Positions 3,423 through 28,099 of a DNA stretch of 32,700 nt are shown piece by piece (within the stretch, counting starts at the first letter, position 1; every line of letters starts with the position of its first letter). The notes under the pieces are model-generated. The model worked only from the letters and a program-made list of their open reading frames with translations. It had not been told where the DNA came from and made no database searches. The position numbers and the translations under genes are program-made. The stretch is from Bacteriovoracaceae bacterium (GTDB lineage Bacteria > Bdellovibrionota > Bacteriovoracia > Bacteriovoracales > Bacteriovoracaceae), in the NCBI GenBank assembly GCA_947461175.1, contig CANHIY010000019.1, positions 1 through 32,700 on the forward strand. Direction: 5' to 3'.

Positions 3423-3818
3423 ATGAAAACCATTTATATTTCATTAGTTTTATTTTTCAGTTCGCTGACTTTTGGACAAACGATCACAGAGGATGGATTT
3501 CGGCTTTGTTATGATGTCGTGAGTTCAACCAAATCCAACTCAACTTTCTGTTTATATGCTCAAGATGAAAACCATTCTCTGGTGGAACTCAATCTTGAGG
3601 GTAAGGTCTACCGGCTCTTAAACCCAGAGATAAACACGGACATTTATGTTGATTTCTCCTGTGAGTGCATGAAATACAAAAACACCTACACCCAGGGGAG
3701 TATTTCTTATGAGCTTGTGATATTTTCGGACGACGGAGTCCTTTTACAGGGAACACTTAGTGTTGAAGGGGTTTTTTCCAGGAAAAAAGTTTTTGAGGTG
3801 AAAAGGGTCGTTGATTAA
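3423..3818 (+). CDS. Small secreted protein of unknown function
   Basis: 131 residues. A clear signal peptide occupies the first ~19 residues (MKTIYISLVLFFSSLTFG, cleavage before QT). The start is supported by AAAGGAGAGGG six bases upstream. The mature part is predicted beta-rich with several cysteines (LCYDV, FCLYA, SCECMK), compatible with a small disulfide-bonded periplasmic or secreted domain. No family recognised. It has its own promoter region, a leader inverted repeat and a bidirectional terminator downstream (3845-3877), so it is probably monocistronic. Confidence 0.65.
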   Translation: MKTIYISLVLFFSSLTFGQTITEDGFRLCYDVVSSTKSNSTFCLYAQDENHSLVELNLEGKVYRLLNPEINTDIYVDFSCECMKYKNTYTQGSISYELVIFSDDGVLLQGTLSVEGVFSRKKVFEVKRVVD

Positions 3819-3844
3819 AAGAAGGAATTTAAAAAGATTGTCAT

Positions 3845-3877
3845 AAAAAAAGGCCCACTTTTGTGGGCCATTTTTTT
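3845..3877. terminator. Bidirectional intrinsic terminator
   Basis: Perfect stem GGCCCAC (3852-3858) / GTGGGCC (3863-3869) with a TTTT loop, flanked by an A-run (3845-3851) and a T-run (3871-3877). It therefore works in both directions, between the convergent genes ending at 3818 (+) and 3897 (-). Confidence 0.9.
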
Positions 3878-3896
3878 GCTTTAAATCCGGTTCAGA

Positions 3897-4124
3897 TTAC
3901 TGAGCTGGAGCAGCCTCTGGAGCTGGAGCAGCCTCTGGAGCTGGAGCAGCTTCTGGAGCTGGAGCAGCTTCTGGAGCTGGCATAGCTTCTGGAGCTGGAG
4001 CAGCTTCTGGAGCTGGAGCAGCTTGCTCAACAGTTGTTTCAACTGGAGCAGCAACTTCTTCTTTCTTGTTACAAGCAACAGCTAGAACAACAAGAGCAGC
4101 AGCAATCACTAAATACTTAGACAT
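3897..4124 (-). CDS. Small lipoprotein with Ala-Pro-Glu hexapeptide repeats
   Basis: The chosen start is ATG at 4124, preceded by AAAGGAG with a 7-base spacer; an in-frame ATG at 4148 has no such site. The 75-residue product has a lipoprotein signal peptide ending in lipobox LAVAC, then a charged CNKKEE segment. A low-complexity tail follows of about six APAPEA units, one with Met replacing Ala, ending in APAQ. After lipidation it would be a short, flexible, acidic Pro/Ala-rich surface or periplasmic tether. Small repeat lipoproteins of this kind are common in Bdellovibrionota; function unknown. It ends just before the bidirectional terminator. Confidence 0.75.
   Translation of the reverse strand: MSKYLVIAAALVVLAVACNKKEEVAAPVETTVEQAAPAPEAAPAPEAMPAPEAAPAPEAAPAPEAAPAPEAAPAQ
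3901..4026. repeat. 18-bp tandem repeat inside the lipoprotein gene
   Basis: Seven near-identical 18-bp units of the type GGAGCTGGAGCAGCYTCT run from 3901 to 4026. Unit five differs by GCATAG replacing GAGCAG. Being a multiple of three, gain or loss of units would change tail length without shifting frame. Confidence 0.9.
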
Positions 4125-4265
4125 AGAATTCTCCTTTTTGTAATTCATCCAAATGACTCTATATTAGATGACATGTAAAAAACTTGATCGATAGCATACA
4201 ATTTACCGAAACTCTTTTTGTCCCGCAAGAGATTTGGCCTAAATATTTTAAAGGTTTGCCTCATC

Positions 4266-5102
4266 TCAATTTTGTGACGCATCAAGATTTAAAATCTTTT
4301 TCCTACACATTGTAAAGGCAAGTTTTGATGAATAGTAGGCCGCCTCGTTGATAAAAATAGGATAAAGGATTTCTTGAGTTTGTTTTTTGACCTCCTCGCC
4401 AGAGAAGAGGCGAAAGGGAGTGTAGTCCCCAGAAATTTCTTGAAAATCTCTCCCTTGAAATCCCTCATGAATATAACCGTCAAGGGAACCTGCACTTTGT
4501 GGATAATAAACATCTTCCACCTCTTCATAAACCTCAAGGTTTTTCTGTGTTGGTTTTTTGACACTTATTTGAGTGAAGAGTTCTCTTAAAATCCTTAGTG
4601 TTTCATGAAGAACCTGGGCCGAAAGGACTCCCTGGGCCACGGGGCCCACCTCAATCATGACACCGGTCTGTGATTGAGAAACTAAGTATTTTTTTTCAGG
4701 GTCCGGGGAATGAATGATTTTAGAATCTCTTACCCCGCTTGAAAGAATGAAATTCAGAGGATGGTCTTGGGTTACGATCAGGGTGCTTCCGAGGTTAGAG
4801 GTGGTGGTGTGGAGGTCAATCACAAAACACTCTTCTTCTAAAATGAGGGATTTGATTTCTTTTGCCCGAAGGTTTTCATAGGAGTGGGGTCTCTTTTCTT
4901 CTACAAATTCAAAGGCACGGTTTAGGTCTTCGTCCTTAAATCTTTTATTAAGAACAAAGGCCTCAGGGTTGGCGTGGATAAAATTTAAATCAAGATTTTT
5001 AAATTCATTTTTTAAGAGAGAAGAATATTTTTTTATAAGATAAATCCCAGTCCACTCATTCCCATGGGTCCCACCAAAGATGAGAACTTTTTTTATCCCC
5101 AT
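4266..5102 (-). CDS. Aspartoacylase/succinylglutamate desuccinylase family zinc amidohydrolase
   Basis: 278 residues of the AstE/AspA (M14-related) family, which cleaves N-acyl amino acids with one zinc. Seen here: GGTHGNEWTG (zinc ligands H13 and E16), NKRF plus DEDLNR (about 53-62, substrate arginines), VIDLHTTT (third zinc ligand H98) and the general base in IEVGP (E151). The HGNE/DLHTTT/EVGP set resembles aspartoacylases more than AstE, but the substrate cannot be read from sequence. The ATG has GAGGAG upstream and overlaps the end of the ATP-grasp gene by 10 bases, implying translational coupling. No arginine-succinyltransferase genes are nearby, so a role with the ligase is likelier than arginine catabolism (inference). 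Confidence 0.85.
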   Translation of the reverse strand: MGIKKVLIFGGTHGNEWTGIYLIKKYSSLLKNEFKNLDLNFIHANPEAFVLNKRFKDEDLNRAFEFVEEKRPHSYENLRAKEIKSLILEEECFVIDLHTTTSNLGSTLIVTQDHPLNFILSSGVRDSKIIHSPDPEKKYLVSQSQTGVMIEVGPVAQGVLSAQVLHETLRILRELFTQISVKKPTQKNLEVYEEVEDVYYPQSAGSLDGYIHEGFQGRDFQEISGDYTPFRLFSGEEVKKQTQEILYPIFINEAAYYSSKLAFTMCRKKILNLDASQN

Positions 5103-6586
5103 TTTTTCTCCTCAATTCTTTTGATAAAATCGTGGATGATGTTGTGGTAGAGGTCCATGCCTGCAATGGCGTCTTCAATATTTGAATCAATATTTGGGTT
5201 GTCGTTAATTTCTATCACGTAGGCCTTGCCGTTTTTTTCCTTGAGGTCTACTCCGTATAAACTATTTCCCATCTGATGTGAGAGCTTTAAGGCGGTGGTG
5301 ATCACGTTTTTTGGAACTTTTGAGATGGGAAAAGTTTCCGTGTCACCTGATTCCACTCCATTTTTTATTTTTTTTGTATGGTCATAAATCTGCCAGTGGC
5401 CCTTGGTCATGTAGTACTTGCAGGCAAAAATCGGGCGGTCATTTAATATCCCGATCCTCCAGTCAAAGTCAGTGTAAAAATATTCCTGGGCCAAAAGGAG
5501 TGCGGTCTTTTTAAAGAGATCATCGGTCACAAGCTTAAGTTCTTCGATGGAGTTGATTTTAAAAATCCCTTTTGAAAAAGAGCCGTCAGGGATTTTAATG
5601 ATCATAGGAAGACCAATTTCTTCTATCGCTTCTTTAAGTTGATCTGAAGAATTTCCGATGACGAGGGTTTTGGGAGAATTGATGTTATTTGAATGAAGAA
5701 GATTTTGAAGATAAATCTTATTCGTGCAACGAAGAATGGACATGGAGTCATCAATACAAATGAGACCCTCGGCCTCAGCTTTTTTTGCAAACCGGTAGGT
5801 GTGGTTCGTGATAGAAGTTGTTTCTCGGATAAAGAGAGCATCATATTCAGCAATCCTTCCAAAATCTTTTTTCTCTATCAGCTCCACCTGGACATCCAGC
5901 TCCTTACCTGCCTTGATGAAGTTTTGGAGGGCCTTCTTATCACTCGGAGGGAGCTGTTCCTGAGGGTTTTGAAGGATAGCAAGATCATAGCGGTACTTTT
6001 TCTTGGCCTTGGGTTTTCGCCAAATCTTACTGGAGTATTCATCCAGGGCCTTGGCAAATTTATCTTCCTCGATATCTGATAGTGAATTGATGCTTCCAGT
6101 CCTAATGGTATTAATGGACCATTTTTTATCCCACTCAAAATCCACATGAAGAATGGGCGTGGGGAAGAGGTCAAAAATTTGTCTTGCCACATCCTGAAGC
6201 TGCTCCTTCTCGGTTCTTCCAAAATAGATGGTGACAGAAATCCCGTCTGTGGGGACTTGAGATTTGAAGGCCTTCTGGATCGCCATGTCCAAATCCTCTG
6301 TGGCCAGTCCATAAAGAGTAGACTTAGAGAGGTCATTGATGGCCTTCACGGAAGGGATGACCGAGTGCCCACGGGCCTCAGCTAAAAGGGAGCAATAATA
6401 TCCGTTACTAAGGTACTTATAGTTTCTGCAAAGATTGATGATTTTAATTCTTTCATTATTCTCCAGGGCTTCATCATGTTTTTCATCCCAGTTAATCAGA
6501 TAGTCTTCTGGGGTCATGAGTTTTTCAACCGGATAGTAAGAGGTCCAGTCTTTGAGTTTTTCAACGATCACAATAATTTTGGCCAC
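5093..6586 (-). CDS. RimK-like ATP-grasp amidoligase with RLAN N-terminal domain
   Basis: A frame of up to 526 codons begins at GTG 6673, but that start has no ribosome site and lies inside the divergent neighbour. GTG at 6586 (AKIIVIVEK...) follows GGAAA and gives 497 residues. The N-terminal half (LKDWTSYYPVEKLMTPEDYL) fits the RimK-like ATP-grasp N-terminal (RLAN) family. The second half is an ATP-grasp domain with an ATP-binding lysine strand (LPMIIKIPDGSFSKGIF) and the metal-binding VIEINDNPNID near the end. ATP-grasp ligases of this group form amide bonds via acyl-phosphates; RimK adds glutamates to ribosomal protein S6. The substrate here is unknown. Overlap with the hydrolase downstream and divergence from the GNAT/peptidase gene mark a recurrent functional cluster. 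Confidence 0.85.
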   Translation of the reverse strand: MAKIIVIVEKLKDWTSYYPVEKLMTPEDYLINWDEKHDEALENNERIKIINLCRNYKYLSNGYYCSLLAEARGHSVIPSVKAINDLSKSTLYGLATEDLDMAIQKAFKSQVPTDGISVTIYFGRTEKEQLQDVARQIFDLFPTPILHVDFEWDKKWSINTIRTGSINSLSDIEEDKFAKALDEYSSKIWRKPKAKKKYRYDLAILQNPQEQLPPSDKKALQNFIKAGKELDVQVELIEKKDFGRIAEYDALFIRETTSITNHTYRFAKKAEAEGLICIDDSMSILRCTNKIYLQNLLHSNNINSPKTLVIGNSSDQLKEAIEEIGLPMIIKIPDGSFSKGIFKINSIEELKLVTDDLFKKTALLLAQEYFYTDFDWRIGILNDRPIFACKYYMTKGHWQIYDHTKKIKNGVESGDTETFPISKVPKNVITTALKLSHQMGNSLYGVDLKEKNGKAYVIEINDNPNIDSNIEDAIAGMDLYHNIIHDFIKRIEEKKWG

Positions 6587-6602
6587 AATGTTTCCAGTTG
6601 TT

Positions 6603-6610
6603 ACTATAAT
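6603..6610. promoter_or_regulatory. Overlapping divergent -10 elements between ligase and GNAT/peptidase genes
   Basis: TATAAT on the plus strand (6605-6610) and TATAGT on the minus strand (6608-6603) overlap within eight bases, in the 68-bp gap between the two start codons. No convincing -35 is visible for either. If used, the two directions would compete for polymerase. Confidence 0.35.
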
Positions 6611-6654
6611 TAGTACAATATCAGAATGCTTATGATCTTCAAGAGGGAGAGTGT

Positions 6655-7779
6655 TTGAAAAAAAGAAATCCACAAGGGATCAACATCAGAAAGGCCCGTG
6701 TGCACGACATCCCAAAGCTTCTTGAGATTGAGAATGCTTGTTTTGATTACGACAAACTTAGTCGGAGAAATTTCCATTGGATGATTAAAAAGGCCCACTC
6801 CATTTTTATGGTTCTTCAGTATGACGCTCGTCTGGCCGGTTACGGGCTGGTTTTAATCAACTCCGGAACATCTCTGGCAAGACTTTACTCCATTGCCATC
6901 CTAAAAGAGTTTCAGGGCATGGGGCTTGCTTCAAAACTGATTAAGGAACTTGAAGAAAGATCGGCCTTAGATGAGGACTGTGCCTATCTTCGTCTGGAAG
7001 TTAAGGAAGATAACAAAAGTGCCATCCGTCTTTACGAGCGGCTCGGCTACACCAAGTTTACCGAAAAAGATGATTATTATGATGATGGGAAAACCGCCTA
7101 TTGTTATGAAAAAAGAATCCGTACCTTAACTAAACCTCAAAGACTCAATATTCCCTACCACGGCCAGGGCACAGAATTTACCTGTGGCGCTTCAAGCCTT
7201 ATGATGGCGATTAAAACTTTTAACCCTGATTTTGACATGGGCCTATCCCATGAGCTTCAGATCTGGAGAGAGGCCACCACGATTTTCATGACCCAAGGGC
7301 ATGGTGGCTGCGGTCCCCATGGGCTGGCCCTCTCGGCCTGGCGGCGGGGGTACCAGGTGGAGATGTTTCTGTCCCGAAGTGAGGTGCTTTTTTTAAATAC
7401 CGTAAGATCCGAAGAGAAGAAAAAGATCATTGAGCTTGTTCACCGGGATTTTGAAAAGAAAATCGCCGAGACAAACATCAAGGTCATGAAAAAAAAGCTC
7501 ACCCTGAAGGACTTAAAAGAGGTACTTAACAAGGGGGGAATCCCCATTATTCTTATTACCACCTACCACTTTGACCACAACCGTGCTCCTCACTGGGTGG
7601 TGGTGACGGCCTATGAGGATCACTTTGTTTATATCCATGATCCGGATCAGTATCAAAATTCTGACTACGCTGGGGTCATCAGTAGAGTCCACATTCCTAT
7701 CCCAGAGGATCAGTTTGTGAAAATTTCTCGTTGGGGCAAGGATCGTCTTTCAGCGGCCGTGGTGGTTTATTCGGAGTAA
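6655..7779 (+). CDS. GNAT acetyltransferase fused to C39-like cysteine peptidase
   Basis: 374 residues with two domains. Residues 8-155 are a RimI-like GNAT domain with the acetyl-CoA loop FQGMGLASKL (86-95) and a C-terminal LYERLGY. Residues 165-372 are a papain/C39-like peptidase: TCGASSLMMA (nucleophile C177), APHWVVV (H313) and IHDPDQ (D329) form the expected catalytic triad. This fused architecture is known from neighbourhoods with RLAN ATP-grasp ligases, where it may trim and acetylate a peptide made by the ligase; no reaction is proven. The start is TTG at 6655, supported by GAGGGAG six bases upstream. It is divergent from the ligase and ends four bases before the convergent prepilin gene. 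Confidence 0.85.
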   Translation: MKKRNPQGINIRKARVHDIPKLLEIENACFDYDKLSRRNFHWMIKKAHSIFMVLQYDARLAGYGLVLINSGTSLARLYSIAILKEFQGMGLASKLIKELEERSALDEDCAYLRLEVKEDNKSAIRLYERLGYTKFTEKDDYYDDGKTAYCYEKRIRTLTKPQRLNIPYHGQGTEFTCGASSLMMAIKTFNPDFDMGLSHELQIWREATTIFMTQGHGGCGPHGLALSAWRRGYQVEMFLSRSEVLFLNTVRSEEKKKIIELVHRDFEKKIAETNIKVMKKKLTLKDLKEVLNKGGIPIILITTYHFDHNRAPHWVVVTAYEDHFVYIHDPDQYQNSDYAGVISRVHIPIPEDQFVKISRWGKDRLSAAVVVYSE

Positions 7780-7783
7780 GATC

Positions 7784-9589
7784 TTACTGGGCCACAAAGG
7801 TCCAGTACTCAGAATCTCCATCTTTAATTCCATGAATGGATTTTTGAGGTTGGCCAGTAGATTTTACATTGCCATTTAATTCAATTTTATAAGTTTTTCC
7901 TGCAACAAGATCGTCATTGGGGTTGATGGTGATTTTTTTATTACTATAGCTCACATTACTTGGAATCAGGATGTATGTTGCATCCTTATTAGCGTCTAAT
8001 GTTTCAAGATATAACCTCACATTTTGATTAGTCACTGTGGTATTATCAAGTTCAATATCAAAATCCATGGTGATGTTTTGGGAGACAGGGAGTGCTCCCC
8101 CTCGGTTTGGTGATCTATTGATAATAATAACTGCATTGTCACAATCAATTTTTAATTTTCCATTACTCTCAATAATCCTATATTTCCCCGTGGAAGAGCA
8201 TTCGGACTTATCAAAGAGCTTATCTAGGTCAATGTGATTTTTTATATCTTCACAAACCACCTTCATGCCTTCCATCCTTTTAAGAATTTTACCAGTAGAG
8301 CATTTGGCATTTGAGGTGAATGAGCATTTTTTGTTCGTACTGTCCCAAGAGGCAGCTACTCCCAAAGAGTTACAAAACTTCTCCTTGGCCGCAGCACTAG
8401 ATTCCCCCACGGCCGCAGTACAGTCAGTGATGGTGTTGGTTGAGTCTCGTGAAATAATGAGAGGGATTTTTTCTGTAATAATGATGTCATCATCACTAGA
8501 TGAATTAAAAGGGTTCCATTTTCGAGCGTCCCTATTTCTTACCCTGAACTTTACCTGCAGATCCACCACATCGTTGGCATTGGTGTCTTGTTGAAGGACT
8601 TCAATCGACTCCGTTTTAAAATCTTTGTACCTCGTATCTGGTTTAATAATTTCCATCATCTCATCAGGTGAGGAGTTTGATGAGGTGACAGGTGGAGGGA
8701 TCACAGGAGTTCTCTTAAATAGGGTTCCAACAACACCTTTGTATTGAGCAGATTTTCCAGAATCCGAGGCGCTATTGGTGGTGTTACCGATCATTAGGGT
8801 GACGTTTTCACTCACTGATCCATTATCATTCGTGGCAGTGATGGTATAAGTTTGAATTAATATATCTAGCGGTATTCCAGAGATAGCACATTTTTCTTCA
8901 TGAAATTCAAGACCTTCGGGAAGTGGAGGAGAGATGGAGCATGTTTTTTTATCAGTGTACTTTTTTAAAGTGGCAGATATTAAGTTGCTTTCTGCGTAAG
9001 TAGGTTCAAATTTTATTTTAGTTGGGGAGATATTTATTTTTTCTCTAACTTTTCCTCGTATTCCTTGTGCTCCATCAAAGCTTAAAGTTGGTCCTCCTAT
9101 GGTACTTTGGACCTGACTTAAACCTTCAACATACAAAGAAAACGTGGACGTGCGTGGGGTCGTGGAATTGCCGTAAGTCACATTCAGAGTGTAAGTTTGA
9201 GGAAGAAAAACGGACTGTGGTGTTCCAGAAATAAGACAAGTTTTGCTATCAATCTGGAGCCCACTAGGAAGATTTGGTGGAGTCAACGTACAATTGGTGA
9301 TAAGGGATTTGGTTTTATTGACTTTAATCCGTACGGTGGAGAGCTTGGTTTCAGCGGAGGGAGTCTTTTGATACTTTCTTCCCGCAACCACATTTCGGCA
9401 GTTTTCTGGGTTTTTTAAATTGATTGCCATAAGTGAGATCGCCTTCTGAATCTCCCCCTTGGAGGTGATGTAGGATTCATTGGACTTTTGCTGGTTTACC
9501 ACATTCATGCTAATGAGCATGACTCCCCCTAGCACTCCCATGCTGATGGACATCTCAAGCATTGATAAACCGTTCTGACTTTTTATCAT
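7784..9589 (-). CDS. Prepilin-like protein with two He_PIG domains and a C-terminal Ig-like domain
   Basis: About 601 residues from ATG 9589, which overlaps the upstream stop as ATGA; an ATG two codons earlier (9595) is possible. A type IV prepilin leader MIKSQNG is followed by LSMLEMSISMGVLGGVM with Glu at +5, so a prepilin peptidase should process it. Two cysteine-bearing He_PIG repeats follow (LPSGLQIDSKTC...ISGTP; LPEGLEFHEEKC...ISGIP), then a Cys module shared with the two adjacent prepilin-like proteins (FCNSLG...WD...C...C). A final Big_5/SbsA-like Ig domain is near the end (SQNITMDFDIEL...GDSEYWTF). It resembles a very large minor pilin or pseudopilin carrying adhesin-like modules, probably exposed at a pilus tip. 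Translationally coupled to the gene upstream. Confidence 0.8.
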   Translation of the reverse strand: MIKSQNGLSMLEMSISMGVLGGVMLISMNVVNQQKSNESYITSKGEIQKAISLMAINLKNPENCRNVVAGRKYQKTPSAETKLSTVRIKVNKTKSLITNCTLTPPNLPSGLQIDSKTCLISGTPQSVFLPQTYTLNVTYGNSTTPRTSTFSLYVEGLSQVQSTIGGPTLSFDGAQGIRGKVREKINISPTKIKFEPTYAESNLISATLKKYTDKKTCSISPPLPEGLEFHEEKCAISGIPLDILIQTYTITATNDNGSVSENVTLMIGNTTNSASDSGKSAQYKGVVGTLFKRTPVIPPPVTSSNSSPDEMMEIIKPDTRYKDFKTESIEVLQQDTNANDVVDLQVKFRVRNRDARKWNPFNSSSDDDIIITEKIPLIISRDSTNTITDCTAAVGESSAAAKEKFCNSLGVAASWDSTNKKCSFTSNAKCSTGKILKRMEGMKVVCEDIKNHIDLDKLFDKSECSSTGKYRIIESNGKLKIDCDNAVIIINRSPNRGGALPVSQNITMDFDIELDNTTVTNQNVRLYLETLDANKDATYILIPSNVSYSNKKITINPNDDLVAGKTYKIELNGNVKSTGQPQKSIHGIKDGDSEYWTFVAQ

Positions 9590-10476
9590 TGGCATTCCAT
9601 CTCAAACTGCTTTGTGGAATTATTCCATACTGTTTTTAGTTTTTTTGGTGAGGCACAAGACACGGGCACAGTGTTTATAAGTGTCTGTACATCACTATCG
9701 TTGGTCACAATTTTTTTACAGTTAATCCTTCCATCTGATCCAATCCCATCTACCATCTCGCCAAAACCACATTCTACATTACTGAACTTACACGTCTGGC
9801 TTACGGGATCCCAGGTTGCAACTTTATTCCCAGTCGTCTCACTGCCAAGAGTTTTACACAAATCGTTTTGAAGATTTGTGACAGCATTTTCTTTGCCGTC
9901 AACACACTCTCGAAAAAGATCAGCGTTGAATCTTGTGTTTAAAAAAATATCTTTTGAAACCTTATAATCCCTTAGCTTTGGATTCATGCAGTAGCCAATC
10001 CTCATGCGCACCAGACCACTGGTGATCCTCCCTTCCACGATCTCCATCTTACAGACATACCAGGTGTCGGTTTTGTCGATGAACTGATTAACAGAAATAA
10101 GGGGGGCCCCCACATAGTAGCCAGGGGTAAAGGCATCATGGGAGAGGTCGCCAGTATTTGGATCACTGCATTTAGATGAGCAGGTGTAGATGGTTGTGAA
10201 GGTGATGGGATTTACTGGAGATGCAACATTATTGAGAATATTTTTCATCGTGGCATTACAGTTGCCGGCCATGTTTAAAATTTTAGTCAGGTGTTGGTGG
10301 TAGAAGGAGAGTTTCTGGTCAAGCTCAGTGGTGCGTTGAGCGGAGCGCTCGTTTTTAAAAAGTTTTGCACTGGTTAAGGCGACACCTGTAAGAATGGCGG
10401 CCCCGATCGTTACCTCAGTTAACGAAAAGCCTCTTTGGCGGAAGAGAATTTGAGTAATGGCCTTAAGAAATGCCAC
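9586..10476 (-). CDS. Prepilin-like minor pilin with C-terminal cysteine module
   Basis: The frame extends to ATG 10506, but GTG at 10476 has AGGAG at ideal spacing (5 bases) and is chosen: 296 residues. A 16-residue leader ending RQRG precedes FSLTEVTIGAAILTGVAL, a class III prepilin motif with Glu at +5. The soluble part has a cysteine after the long helix (AGNCNATM) and a C-terminal Cys module (LCKTLG...WDPVSQTCKF...ECGFGE...INC...MEC) matching both neighbours. It probably incorporates as a minor pilin in a type IV pilus or type II secretion-like filament. It is the first gene of a two-gene operon, overlapping the next by the ATGA pattern. Confidence 0.8.
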   Translation of the reverse strand: MAFLKAITQILFRQRGFSLTEVTIGAAILTGVALTSAKLFKNERSAQRTTELDQKLSFYHQHLTKILNMAGNCNATMKNILNNVASPVNPITFTTIYTCSSKCSDPNTGDLSHDAFTPGYYVGAPLISVNQFIDKTDTWYVCKMEIVEGRITSGLVRMRIGYCMNPKLRDYKVSKDIFLNTRFNADLFRECVDGKENAVTNLQNDLCKTLGSETTGNKVATWDPVSQTCKFSNVECGFGEMVDGIGSDGRINCKKIVTNDSDVQTLINTVPVSCASPKKLKTVWNNSTKQFEMECQ

Positions 10477-10565
10477 AATATCTCCTGATGAACTTTTAAC
10501 TATCATAAACCTTATCGGCAGTTCCCGGAGATTTTTTAAGTAAAAACAGGAGGTTATTTTTTTGA

Positions 10566-10579
10566 GGGGGGGGAGGGGG
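10566..10579 (+). repeat. Poly-G tract between divergent prepilin-like genes
   Basis: Eight G, one A, five G, in the 218-bp gap between the divergent starts at 10476 (-) and 10695 (+). Homopolymer runs of this length are slippage-prone. No coding frame uses it. The rest of the gap shows no other clear element. Confidence 0.8.
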
Positions 10580-10694
10580 ATGCCTTAAATTTGTGGGGTT
10601 TACACGCAGTAGGAGATGAAGAGTTTTTAATGGGTTAGTTTTGGTGTTTTTTAACATTACCCCAAAAACCATTTCATGCGTAAGATATGAGAAT

Positions 10695-11555
10695 ATGAAG
10701 TTTCTTTTAAAAAATTCTTTAGGACTCTCCATGATTCAGGGAATGATCATCGCGGGTCTAGTGGCCGGGTCAGCGCTGGTGACGGCGAGGCTTTTGGTGG
10801 ATCAAAAATTGATTCAGAAGGGGGCCGAAAGTAGGGATCAAGTTGAAGACTTAAACCTGGTTATTTTTAATATTCTCCAAGATAAAGAGTCCTGTTCTAA
10901 AACAATGGAAAAAAATAATCTTAAGGCTTTTTTTAGTGACAACACCTCCTCTGTGGTGAATGACATTTGGAATAAATACAGTGTGGTCTTTAGTGTTGGT
11001 GGACGTTATTTAGCAGAGAATGTGCAGCTGGAGTCCATGGCCCTGGTGACTTCGTCTACACTGGGAGCGGCAAAACTTTATGTCGTGTATGAAATCCTTA
11101 ATGAAGATAAGGGAACCAAGAGGGGAGTGGCGGCCAAAAGACTTAAGAAAATGATTGAATTAAGGGTCCAAAAAAGCCAAAAGGATGGGTCATTTATTTC
11201 CTGCTATGCCTACAAAGAGGGGATCACGGAGGAGATGAACTCCACCGCCTCCGTGGAAACAGGAAGTGAATTTTCCAGGGAGTTTTGTGAAGAGATGAGT
11301 CAGGGAACAGGAAACCAGAAAGCTTTTTTATGGGATGAGGCCAATGGTCTTTGCAGGATAAATTCTGAGTGCCCTGGTCAGAAAATTTTTGTGGGGATTG
11401 ATGCCAGTGGAACCGTTCTCTGTGAAAACATTAGGGACTGGGTGGATTTTAGCACCATTCTGGATTCAACCCCCGTCAATTGCCCAAATGGCCACAAGGT
11501 GGGTTTTAAAATTGATAACACCACTAAAAAAGTAAAGATAGATTGTCATCTCTGA
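10695..11555 (+). CDS. Prepilin-like protein lacking Glu+5, with C-terminal cysteine module
   Basis: The chosen start is ATG 10695; the longer frame from 10641 adds an implausible leader. The 286-residue product begins MKFLLKNSLG, then LSMIQGMIIAGLVAGSALV: a prepilin cleavage site and hydrophobic helix, but with Gln where Glu+5 normally is. Glu+5 is typically missing in tip-type pseudopilins such as GspK. The soluble part has DKESCSKTM after the helix and the shared module (FCEEMS...LWDEANGLC...ECPGQK...LC...NCPNGHK...IDC). It is divergent from the other two prepilin-like genes. A TAAGAT box ends eight bases before the ATG and no strong ribosome site is visible, so the mRNA may be near-leaderless. 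Likely a filament-tip minor pilin (inference). Confidence 0.78.
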   Translation: MKFLLKNSLGLSMIQGMIIAGLVAGSALVTARLLVDQKLIQKGAESRDQVEDLNLVIFNILQDKESCSKTMEKNNLKAFFSDNTSSVVNDIWNKYSVVFSVGGRYLAENVQLESMALVTSSTLGAAKLYVVYEILNEDKGTKRGVAAKRLKKMIELRVQKSQKDGSFISCYAYKEGITEEMNSTASVETGSEFSREFCEEMSQGTGNQKAFLWDEANGLCRINSECPGQKIFVGIDASGTVLCENIRDWVDFSTILDSTPVNCPNGHKVGFKIDNTTKKVKIDCHL

Positions 11556-25843: not shown

Positions 25844-27571
25844 CTAGAGTTCCCCTAAGCTAAGCCCCTCACCTCTGGGGTCTGAAACTCCGTGCCAGTG
25901 GCCCTTTACTTTTTTTATGGCCTGAATAGAGCAGCCAAGTTGTTCGTGGGAGATGTTGTGGCCCTTTTCTTTGAGTTCCTTTTCTACTTCCGGAGAGAGG
26001 TAGGGGGATTCAATTTTAAGCACATCTGGTCGCCACTGGTGGTGGATCCTTGTGGCGGCCACGGCCTCATAGAGGGGCATTTCAAATTCAACGGTATTTA
26101 AAATGGTCTGGGCCACACAGCTAATGATCCTCGTTCCAGAAGGGGAGCCCAAGGCCATGAAGGGTTCACCCTCTTTTGTCATGATGGTGGGAGACATGGA
26201 AGAGAGAGGGCGCTTTCTAGGGTAAACAAGATTATGTTCTCCACCCACGGCACCGAAGAGGTTTTGGGCCCCCTTTTTTTGAGCGAAGTCATCCATTTCA
26301 TTATTCAGGATAACTCCTGTTCCCTGAGCAATCACTCCTGACCCAAACCAACCGTTTATGGTTTGAGTGGAGGAAACGAGGTTTCCTTCCTCATCTGCGA
26401 TAGTAAAGTGAGTCGTGTCGGAAGACTCGTAGGGAAGTTCCTCTGCCTTAACATCCAGGGCCCCAAGGGCCTTGGGGTGATTGATGGCCTTGGAGAGTTT
26501 AGAGAGGTATGTCTCACTTAAAAGTTCTTTTTGTGGCACAGGATGAAAATCAGGGTCTCCTAAGTACAGGGCCCGGTCAAGAAACGCCCTCTGCATGGCA
26601 TTGGCAGTGAGGTGCACAGATTGAGTGGTTTGAGGTCCCCATTTTTTTAACTCATAGGGAGAGAGCATTTTTAAAATCTGGATCACATGAATGCCCCCAG
26701 AACTTGGAGGGGGCATAGAGAAAATCTTAAGCCCCTTGTAGGATCCTTCCACCGGTGTCCTCTCCACCATCTTGTAGGTTTTCAAATCTTTTAGAGAGAG
26801 GAGTCCATTTTTTTTTCGAACTGTTTCAACCACTGAGCGGGCAATCTTACCCTCGTAAAAACCATCCGCCCCTTCTTGTGCAATAACCTCTAACGTCTTG
26901 GCGAGGTTTTCTTGATAAATCATGGTGCCAAGATAGGGTGCTTCCCCTGCTGGGGTATAGAAAGTTTTTTTTGCCTCTTCATCCAAAAGAAGAAGATTCT
27001 TCCTGTCCTCTAGGGCCTCATGAAGTTCAGGATAAAGAGGGAACCCTTCCCTTGCAAGTTTAATGGCAGGGCCCAGGGTTTCTTTCCAGGGAAGTTTTCC
27101 AAAACGTTGGTGGATTTCAAAGAGCCCTCTCACCAGACCTGGTGTTGCCACTGCGAGCCCCCCTTCCTGAGAAAGAAGAGGCTGAGGGGCCCCAGACTTA
27201 GTGAGGAACATAGTTTTAGTCGCCATCAAAGGTGCCACTTCACGAAAATCAAAGGCGTAAACTTTGTTCTCCTTTTGGGAGAAATACAACAAAAACCCTC
27301 CTCCTCCGATACCTGTAGAGTGGGGACGCTCGACTGAAATGGCAAAAGAGGCGGCCACAAATGCATCAATAATGTTACCCCCATTTTCTAAAACAGAAAG
27401 TGCGGCCCTGGTGGTTCCTCCTCCCTGACTTGCCACCATGACTTTTTTTGACCTGGCCTCATGGGTGATTCTTTTGTGATTTCCCTCAGGGGAGACGATG
27501 TTAACTTTATGAGTACAGGCAACGGGTGAAATCAAGAGTCCTAGGGAAATGATCTGTATCATCGAGCGCAT
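25844..27571 (-). CDS. ggt: Gamma-glutamyltransferase, periplasmic
   Basis: 575 residues, standard length for the precursor. The signal region is MRSMIQIISLGLLISPVAC; the VAC could be a weak lipobox (Pro at -3 is unusual) or an ordinary cleavage site. Family segments are SVERPHSTGIGGGGFLLYF and the autoprocessing/nucleophile site DTTHFTIADEEGN (catalytic Thr386). A lid-loop-like region is present too (GGEHNLVYPRKRPLSSMSPTI). The oxyanion-hole GSPGG of characterised GGTs reads GSPSG here (476-479). It cleaves and transfers gamma-glutamyl groups, e.g. from glutathione or poly-gamma-glutamyl peptides. It lies 33 bases downstream of the RimK-associated zinc protease gene, probably co-transcribed. 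RBS GGAGAA. Confidence 0.93.
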   Translation of the reverse strand: MRSMIQIISLGLLISPVACTHKVNIVSPEGNHKRITHEARSKKVMVASQGGGTTRAALSVLENGGNIIDAFVAASFAISVERPHSTGIGGGGFLLYFSQKENKVYAFDFREVAPLMATKTMFLTKSGAPQPLLSQEGGLAVATPGLVRGLFEIHQRFGKLPWKETLGPAIKLAREGFPLYPELHEALEDRKNLLLLDEEAKKTFYTPAGEAPYLGTMIYQENLAKTLEVIAQEGADGFYEGKIARSVVETVRKKNGLLSLKDLKTYKMVERTPVEGSYKGLKIFSMPPPSSGGIHVIQILKMLSPYELKKWGPQTTQSVHLTANAMQRAFLDRALYLGDPDFHPVPQKELLSETYLSKLSKAINHPKALGALDVKAEELPYESSDTTHFTIADEEGNLVSSTQTINGWFGSGVIAQGTGVILNNEMDDFAQKKGAQNLFGAVGGEHNLVYPRKRPLSSMSPTIMTKEGEPFMALGSPSGTRIISCVAQTILNTVEFEMPLYEAVAATRIHHQWRPDVLKIESPYLSPEVEKELKEKGHNISHEQLGCSIQAIKKVKGHWHGVSDPRGEGLSLGEL

Positions 27572-27604: not shown

Positions 27605-28099
27605 TTAAGAGGGAGTCGTTGTGGTTGTGAGTTCTTTTAAAAATCTTTTTTGCTTGGTGGTTTTCCCGGCCAGATAAGACTGAGTAGGATCAATATAGAA
27701 GTGCTTTAGGGCCGCTCTCCCAATCAGCATACGGTACTTCATAGAGGCCCGGTTGGTGAGGGTGAGTTCAATGGTTTTTTTAATGCCGGCAAGGATCATG
27801 GTGGTGCGGATCACATACCTTTCCTCCTTGTGTCCCCCAGAATCTGAAACAAATCTTTTATCAACCAGGAGGGCCTTGCACTGGACCACCACCCGGGAGT
27901 TATTTTGAAGAGGATGAACCTTAAAATGGACGAAGGTTTTCTGCCCCTTTTTTTTAAGGACAATATCAAAGGCATGTAAGCTTGACGTTTTTGCGCCTGT
28001 GTCAATTTTCCCTTTGATCGCCACAATCCCAAGTTCAGGCAGTGAAGGCCACTCCCGCCATCCTATGATTTTTGATTCACCATTTGCTTCTTTATCCAT
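27605..28099 (-). CDS. RimK/LysX-associated ATP-dependent zinc protease family protein (DUF785-type, pepsin-like fold)
   Basis: 164 residues, the size of the Zn_protease/DUF785 family. GKIDTGAKTSSLHA (30-43) is the retropepsin-like active-site strand with Asp33; KYRMLIGRAAL (121-131) is the second conserved segment. Family members sit next to RimK-type ligases and are proposed to process ligase products; the activity is poorly characterised. Here the gene is paired with ggt downstream and divergent from the lytic transglycosylase. A TTCACA-N18-TAAGAT promoter (28135-28106) ends six bases before the ATG and no Shine-Dalgarno is visible, suggesting a leaderless mRNA. Confidence 0.85.
   Translation of the reverse strand: MDKEANGESKIIGWREWPSLPELGIVAIKGKIDTGAKTSSLHAFDIVLKKKGQKTFVHFKVHPLQNNSRVVVQCKALLVDKRFVSDSGGHKEERYVIRTTMILAGIKKTIELTLTNRASMKYRMLIGRAALKHFYIDPTQSYLAGKTTKQKRFLKELTTTTTPS

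Follow-up and report, generated by a model that had tools for sequence, protein, structure and literature searches.

What do a peptide ligase, an acetyltransferase fused to a peptidase, and an aspartoacylase-like hydrolase do together when their genes lie side by side in a bacterium of the family Bacteriovoracaceae? The three genes occupy positions 4266 to 7779 of the 32,700-nucleotide stretch of DNA analysed here (the window), which belongs to a 3.0 Mb genome in 211 contigs with completeness given as 89.7. A preliminary description of the locus proposed that three linked enzymes build, acetylate and cut, and deacylate amide bonds. The neighbourhood proved to be real, with three intact open reading frames at that place. 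Here we describe the gene content, linkage, catalytic residues, predicted folds and cassette behaviour of the trio. We tentatively propose, as a possible rather than a probable reading, that it forms a cytosolic cassette for the synthesis and recycling of a small molecule, either an N-acetylated oligopeptide or the amide of an N-acetyl-amino acid.

The acetyltransferase-peptidase gene (6655..7779, + strand, TTG start) encodes a protein of 374 aa, in which a GNAT domain (about residues 8-156; PF00583, 65 bits) is followed by a papain-like C39/DUF3335 domain (about residues 166-371; PF11814, 265.8 bits), both above the curated cut-offs. Residues C177, H313, D329 and Q171 are invariant in 31/31 aligned sequences, and by family we infer that they are catalytic in the C39 domain. 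With both domains over cut-off and the Cys-His-Asp residues in place, the protein belongs to the GNAT-DUF3335 (peptidase C39-like) fusions, a known class predicted to be peptide ligases or acetylating enzymes (PMC10318531, citing a 2009 survey). The nearest folds, in a fold search whose lists reached the GNAT half but not the C39 half, were the alpha-amine acetyltransferases Ard1/RimI. A look for GNAT-C39 in phages gave 11 pattern matches in viral contigs, none of them a relative.

The ligase gene (5093..6586, - strand) encodes about 497 aa and carries an RLAN domain (PF14401, 173.4 bits; cut-off 25) together with a RimK-type ATP-grasp domain (PF08443, 45.5 bits; cut-off 21), so that its product qualifies as an RLAN ATP-grasp ligase, with RLAN over the gathering score. 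The open reading frame as listed begins at 6673, within the 5' end of the GNAT gene. The start is most likely the GTG at 6586, since two close homologues start M-A-K/R-I, and the divergent gap between the two genes would therefore span 68 bp (6587..6654). A shared divergent promoter had been suggested for this gap, but the region 3800-8000 has no more promoter-like sites than chance would give (6, with 6.7 expected from shuffles), and the one site inside the gap (6591-6619, + strand) is a putative promoter at most. The reported 10-bp gene overlap, on the other hand, was confirmed: the ligase stop runs into the start of the third gene (5093..5102), and an overlap of some length is found in relatives too, the AspA start codon overlapping the stop, mostly as ATGA, in 15 junctions inspected by eye (14 distinct contigs). 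This third gene (4266..5102, - strand) encodes an AspA/AstE-family zinc deacylase of 278 aa (PF24827, 85.8 bits; PF04952), which scored 236.3 bits with the NCBIfam 'aspartoacylase' model PRK02259 against a cut-off of 180.

The preliminary description had staked its proposal on conserved co-occurrence, which we checked in two samples: 145 relatives, own genome included, accompanied by 14 control genomes, and 194 genomes from the order to which one Pseudomonas genome belongs (G145, the source of locus L065). RLAN was present in 41/145 genomes of the first sample and DUF3335 in 32/145, all 32 within the 41 with RLAN; the two lay on one contig in 31/32, their starts separated by 1.0 to 1.4 kb, and on different contigs in the remaining genome (G036). 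In the second sample RLAN was present in 82/194 genomes and DUF3335 over cut-off in 74/194, again all within the RLAN set, the two being within 6 kb of each other in 61/74 and farther apart, yet both kept, in 13/74. RLAN thus accompanies DUF3335 in 32/32 and 74/74 genomes (Fisher p = 2.6e-24 and 5.9e-45, values inflated by shared ancestry because related genomes were treated as independent). One genome of the second sample (G306) has a DUF3335 match under the cut-off and no RLAN, and four (G145, G241, G269 and G317) have two RLAN matches and one DUF3335 match each. In a scan of genome contigs, where the best 80 of at least 592 relatives were kept and counts are biased to relatives of the query, the closest loci (L061-L064) were titled Bacteriovoracaceae or Bacteriovorax stolpii, and a GNAT match stood beside RLAN in 71 of the best 80 loci, 41 of these 71 also with C39. 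The core is the RLAN ligase with GNAT, to which C39 is often fused.

The RimK-type ATP-grasp domain of the window ligase would also suit ordinary RimK-type modification of S6, with the neighbouring genes as mere passengers, and an ordinary S6 glutamate ligase was the outcome that the preliminary description had named as fatal to its proposal. The window protein, however, scored 39.8 bits with NF007764 (RimK S6 glutamate ligase; cut-off 331), whereas a separate, true RimK elsewhere in the same genome (G000:C82) scored 435.9 bits. By these scores the window ligase is not an ordinary S6 ligase; with the co-occurrence found above, neither of the two results named in advance as refuting was obtained. 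Moreover, the co-occurrence of RLAN and DUF3335 is too tight for passengers, and therefore we regard this explanation as extremely improbable. The nearest folds to the ligase were those of LysX/RimK/ArgX, which places it in that fold group by a comparison that barely covered RLAN residues 1-197.

The residues of the AspA protein bear on its substrate class. Equivalents of human ASPA H21, E24, H116, R63, N70, R71, E178 and T118 are kept in 27/27 AspA rows, and those of F282, E285, A287 and Y288 in every row covering these positions; with its zinc and catalytic residues and its PRK02259 score, the window protein is a member of the aspartoacylase family. To judge from the kept residues, the substrate should be an amino acid that bears a short acyl group and whose alpha-carboxylate is free. 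Aspartoacylase itself has a small N-acetyl amino acid as its substrate, its channel barring peptide hydrolysis, and its R168 touches the aspartate side of the substrate (PMC10998430). The R168 equivalent is Gln in 17/17 RLAN-linked AspA rows (Gln143 in the window), so that the arginine that would mark an N-acetylaspartate-specific aspartoacylase is replaced. The earlier statement that all catalytic residues are intact therefore holds for catalysis and not for this substrate-contacting position. We predict an N-acetyl-amino-acid deacetylase that is not aspartate-specific. The choice between 'peptide tag or metabolite' had been left too open, since the short acyl pocket and the alpha-carboxylate clamp of AspA lean towards a small N-acylated metabolite.

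Do the three genes form a unit? Genome G010, of the same genus and with completeness 92, has the cytochrome, FHA, three pilin-like, lipoprotein and DUF2141 genes, whereas RLAN and DUF3335 are absent genome-wide and no AspA exceeds the cut-off; this may reflect either loss of the cassette or its original absence. In G029, of a related genus, lipoprotein and FHA genes are adjacent with no cassette between them, and neither RLAN nor DUF3335 was found genome-wide, while G074, of the same genus as G029, carries the AspA-ligase-GNAT-C39 trio on a different contig from its FHA-lipoprotein site. Since the trio is missing as a block in G010 and recurs in the same order elsewhere in G074, we argue that the three genes behave as one cassette and work together.

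The partnership is nevertheless not an equal one. The amide-bond system of ligase, acetyltransferase-peptidase and deacylase put forward in the preliminary description stands as regards conserved linkage but not as regards equal partners, AspA adjoining RLAN in 20/145 genomes, 18 of them within the window's genus and 2 elsewhere in the family. PRK02259 was over cut-off in 30/145 genomes, 23 of them with RLAN; besides the 20 adjacent cases, the two genes were on different contigs in G020 and G022 and about 9 kb apart in G060. In a midpoint-rooted tree of 98 ligases, the AspA-linked sequences fell in one clade, together with L060 (GNAT without C39, no AspA), and the DUF2817-linked sequences were spread over more than one clade. 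A gene similar to a DUF2817 protein was present in 12 of the best 80 loci, with Pfam confirming one (L118). Judged by these matches, the hydrolase is lineage-dependent, being AspA here and DUF2817 in some Gammaproteobacteria. Seven GCS2-linked sequences formed a separate, well-supported clade, five of them with stand-alone C39 and two of these five with FGase, as verified with Pfam for each domain in one or two sequences. Related genomes have loci of this kind (L050-L053 and L057), in which a stand-alone C39, an RLAN ligase and a GCS2 carboxylate-amine ligase stand in a row, two with an N-formylglutamate-amidohydrolase-like gene. These rows belong to the same ligase family as a sister variant, with GCS2 replacing GNAT.

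For the proposed N-acetyl metabolite cassette, reactions, order, product and role would be as follows. The GNAT domain would acetylate an amino acid or short peptide at its alpha-amine, and the RLAN ligase would use ATP to activate the free carboxylate of the capped molecule and add another amino acid. The C39 domain would then cut (or transfer) the peptide bond, and the AspA-family enzyme would convert the released N-acetyl-amino acid to acetate and the amino acid, the capped residue being predicted to be other than aspartate. A cycle of capping by GNAT, extension by ATP-grasp, cutting by C39 and deacetylation by AspA appears to be the most economical arrangement of these activities. If ligation is constant and the cap variable, a swap of GCS2 for GNAT, and DUF2817 or FGase in AspA-less loci, would be expected; the observed partner swaps fit such capping. 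For other ATP-grasp families it has been suggested that a linked GNAT supplies an acyl group to cap what the peptide ligase makes (PMC4431377).

Several observations weigh against this reading. C39 is absent beside GNAT in 30 of the best 80 loci, and a GNAT match is absent in 9, of which 5 lie at contig ends and 4 do not. AspA stands beside RLAN in 3 of the best 80 loci, and because it is missing from most RLAN/GNAT loci, deacetylation is not part of the core; conversely, AspA over cut-off occurs without RLAN in 7/145 genomes. The acyl pocket is not fully ASPA-like, because the human Q184 equivalent is Asn or Ser in all linked AspA rows except that of the window. RLAN was found in 0/14 controls, while one of them, the archaeon Methanosarcina acetivorans, has DUF3335 over cut-off, so that the C39-like domain also lives outside the RLAN pair. 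Finally, Ard1/RimI and RimK/LysX/ArgX, the nearest folds of GNAT and ligase, modify proteins, which fits protein modification as well.

This last point makes protein tagging the main rival: in structure, ligase and GNAT both come closest to enzymes that modify proteins. Ard1 and RimI acetylate proteins at the N-terminus; RimK, LysX and ArgX modify them at the C-terminus, with RimK extending S6 and LysX modifying LysW as precedents. The RLAN ligase would accordingly extend a protein terminus, for which its dedicated N-terminal RLAN domain could bind the protein, GNAT would cap or mark an N-terminus, C39 would remove the tag and AspA would recycle the pieces. No small carrier or target gene was seen to recur with the cassette, however; the sole recurring neighbour, a lipoprotein gene, also occurs without it, and the aspartoacylase channel bars peptide hydrolysis (PMC10998430). 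We therefore hold tagging to be somewhat unlikely. The cassette might instead belong to a broad set of RLAN pathways making gamma-glutamyl or amide secondary metabolites for export or signalling, with different caps (an acetyl group where GNAT is present, gamma-glutamyl or another group where GCS2 is). The order C39-RLAN-GCS2-(FGase) in the sister clade would agree with such a set, and linked peptide ligases are stated to make peptide-derived metabolites, for which an acyl cap by GNAT is possible (PMC4431377). Yet among the loci compared in this genus no transporter, regulator or tailoring enzyme was seen to recur beside the cassette, a point limited by the CorA-like gene that follows RLAN in 15 of the best 80 loci; we judge this explanation distinctly unlikely.

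The genes around the cassette were compared as well. A conserved lipoprotein gene adjoins the trio in the window and in the congeners compared, and FHA and cytochrome-type genes are near in several. The short predicted lipoprotein (3897-4124, - strand) has a nearly invariant N-terminal half, MSKYLVIAAALVVLAVAC-NKKEE, and a low-complexity Ala/Pro/Glu tail, encoded by an 18-bp repeat in 6.8 copies (3902-4024). Although its gene follows AspA in 15/15 loci compared (14 distinct contigs), which suggested an operon, we rejected it as a fourth cassette member or ligase target. G010 has the lipoprotein (95 bits) in the same backbone without the cassette, and weaker relatives in G029 (44 bits) and G074 (48 bits) lie at the FHA gene, away from any cassette; the lipoprotein is thus a marker of the site. 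Between the cassette and the FHA gene (7784-11555) lie three genes resembling pilins, whose N-termini look prepilin-type by eye, and in G010 (L189) this pilin block is inverted relative to the window.

At a distance of about 21 kb, a RimB-like retropepsin gene (27605-28099, - strand; PF05618, 115 bits; NF052261, 119 bits, short of the 200-bit cut-off) stands right next to a gamma-glutamyltransferase gene (25844-27571, - strand). The retropepsin was treated as unrelated to the cassette, having no relative in the best 80 loci, and is possibly a partner of the true RimK, which lies on another contig. The genome has two PF05618 genes, this one and another on a different contig, neither beside the window ligase as a Rim/Rlo module would require. 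An Rlo-like group elsewhere in the genome (L162, G000:C9:13000-28000, positions 4737-7776, - strand) comprises a retropepsin, a membrane protein resembling RloB (199 bits, below the cut-off of 900) and a TIGR02291 alpha-L-glutamate-ligase-like protein (369 bits; cut-off 314). On a Pseudomonas aeruginosa plasmid (NZ_CP133752.1, L181), an RLAN ligase labelled 'RimK family alpha-L-glutamate ligase' has pagP, ggt and a glutamate/aspartate transporter in its vicinity, and the annotation shows no GNAT-C39 over a distance of about 6 kb. For P. aeruginosa PA1345, a motif-predicted CpxR site was not found by DNA affinity purification sequencing (PMC12802237, Table 1), evidence too weak to be used. We take PA1345, by gene order, to be the P. 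aeruginosa RLAN ligase.

The pairing matters because in 106/106 genomes of the two samples with DUF3335 over cut-off RLAN is present too, yet the families are named 'RimK family' or 'DUF3335'. Once they are joined by a third enzyme whose residues indicate a substrate class, this uncharacterised pair becomes a testable pathway: an N-acetylated small molecule is predicted, along with a deacetylase preferring a substrate other than N-acetylaspartate. If the proposal is true, Pseudomonas and its relatives make a common metabolite that has so far gone unnoticed. A literature search naming RLAN, PF14401, DUF3335 or PF11814 found no experimental study among the papers listed.

RLAN-RimK and GNAT-DUF3335 amidoligase neighbourhoods were reportedly surveyed by Iyer et al. 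in 2009 (Mol Biosyst; cited in PMC10318531 and PMC4431377) and predicted to serve peptide synthesis or modification. The link of an ATP-grasp ligase to a GNAT and papain-like domain is said to be common to that survey and the window, whose own feature is a third gene, in translational overlap with the ligase, for an AspA-family deacetylase in which Arg168 is replaced. What we add is this AspA variant without the aspartate-contacting Arg, the measured RLAN co-occurrence and the cassette behaviour; we make no claim that the three-gene variant is unpublished, as the survey may list AspA. RimABK and RloABC likewise join a RimK-type ligase to a peptidase, there a retropepsin (PMC11957791, PMC12239564), whereas the window peptidase is papain-like and a true RimK and an Rlo-like group lie elsewhere in the same genome. 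The bacterial N-acetylglutaminylglutamine amide (NAGGN) osmolyte system (asnO-ngg, PA3459-PA3461) is a precedent for the logic of the proposed cycle: it also brings acetylation, ligation and a peptidase gene together and yields an N-acetyl-dipeptide product, but there one protein acetylates glutamine and joins a second one, alongside an asparagine-synthase-like amidotransferase (PMC8070244). In the window, ligase and GNAT are encoded by separate genes, the fusion being of GNAT with C39; RLAN is part of the ligase, and the cassette has no amidotransferase, the genome at large not having been searched; the fused NAGGN GNAT/ATP-grasp model TIGR03103 gave 21.9 bits against 569 for window protein P0002, the rest of the genome again not searched. 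In mammals, N-acetylaspartate (NAA) and N-acetylaspartylglutamate (NAAG) are handled by NAT8L, RIMKLA/B, GCPII and ASPA, that is, by a GNAT, a RimK-type ligase, a peptidase and an aspartoacylase-family deacetylase as in the window, which differs in its peptidase class, its RLAN domain and the Gln in place of the aspartate-contacting Arg168. NAAG metabolism, too, follows the logic of the proposed cycle; the resemblance is a functional parallel and not proof of a homologous pathway. Carried further, to a bacterial counterpart of the brain NAA/NAAG cycle retuned from aspartate to another residue, it is a rather unlikely suggestion. The glutamine at the Arg168 position would then point to a neutral polar side chain, e.g. 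Gln, Asn or Ser; in Bacteriovoracaceae the product would serve as a compatible solute or nitrogen store not described before, and the core of ligase and GNAT would be widely shared among Gammaproteobacteria.

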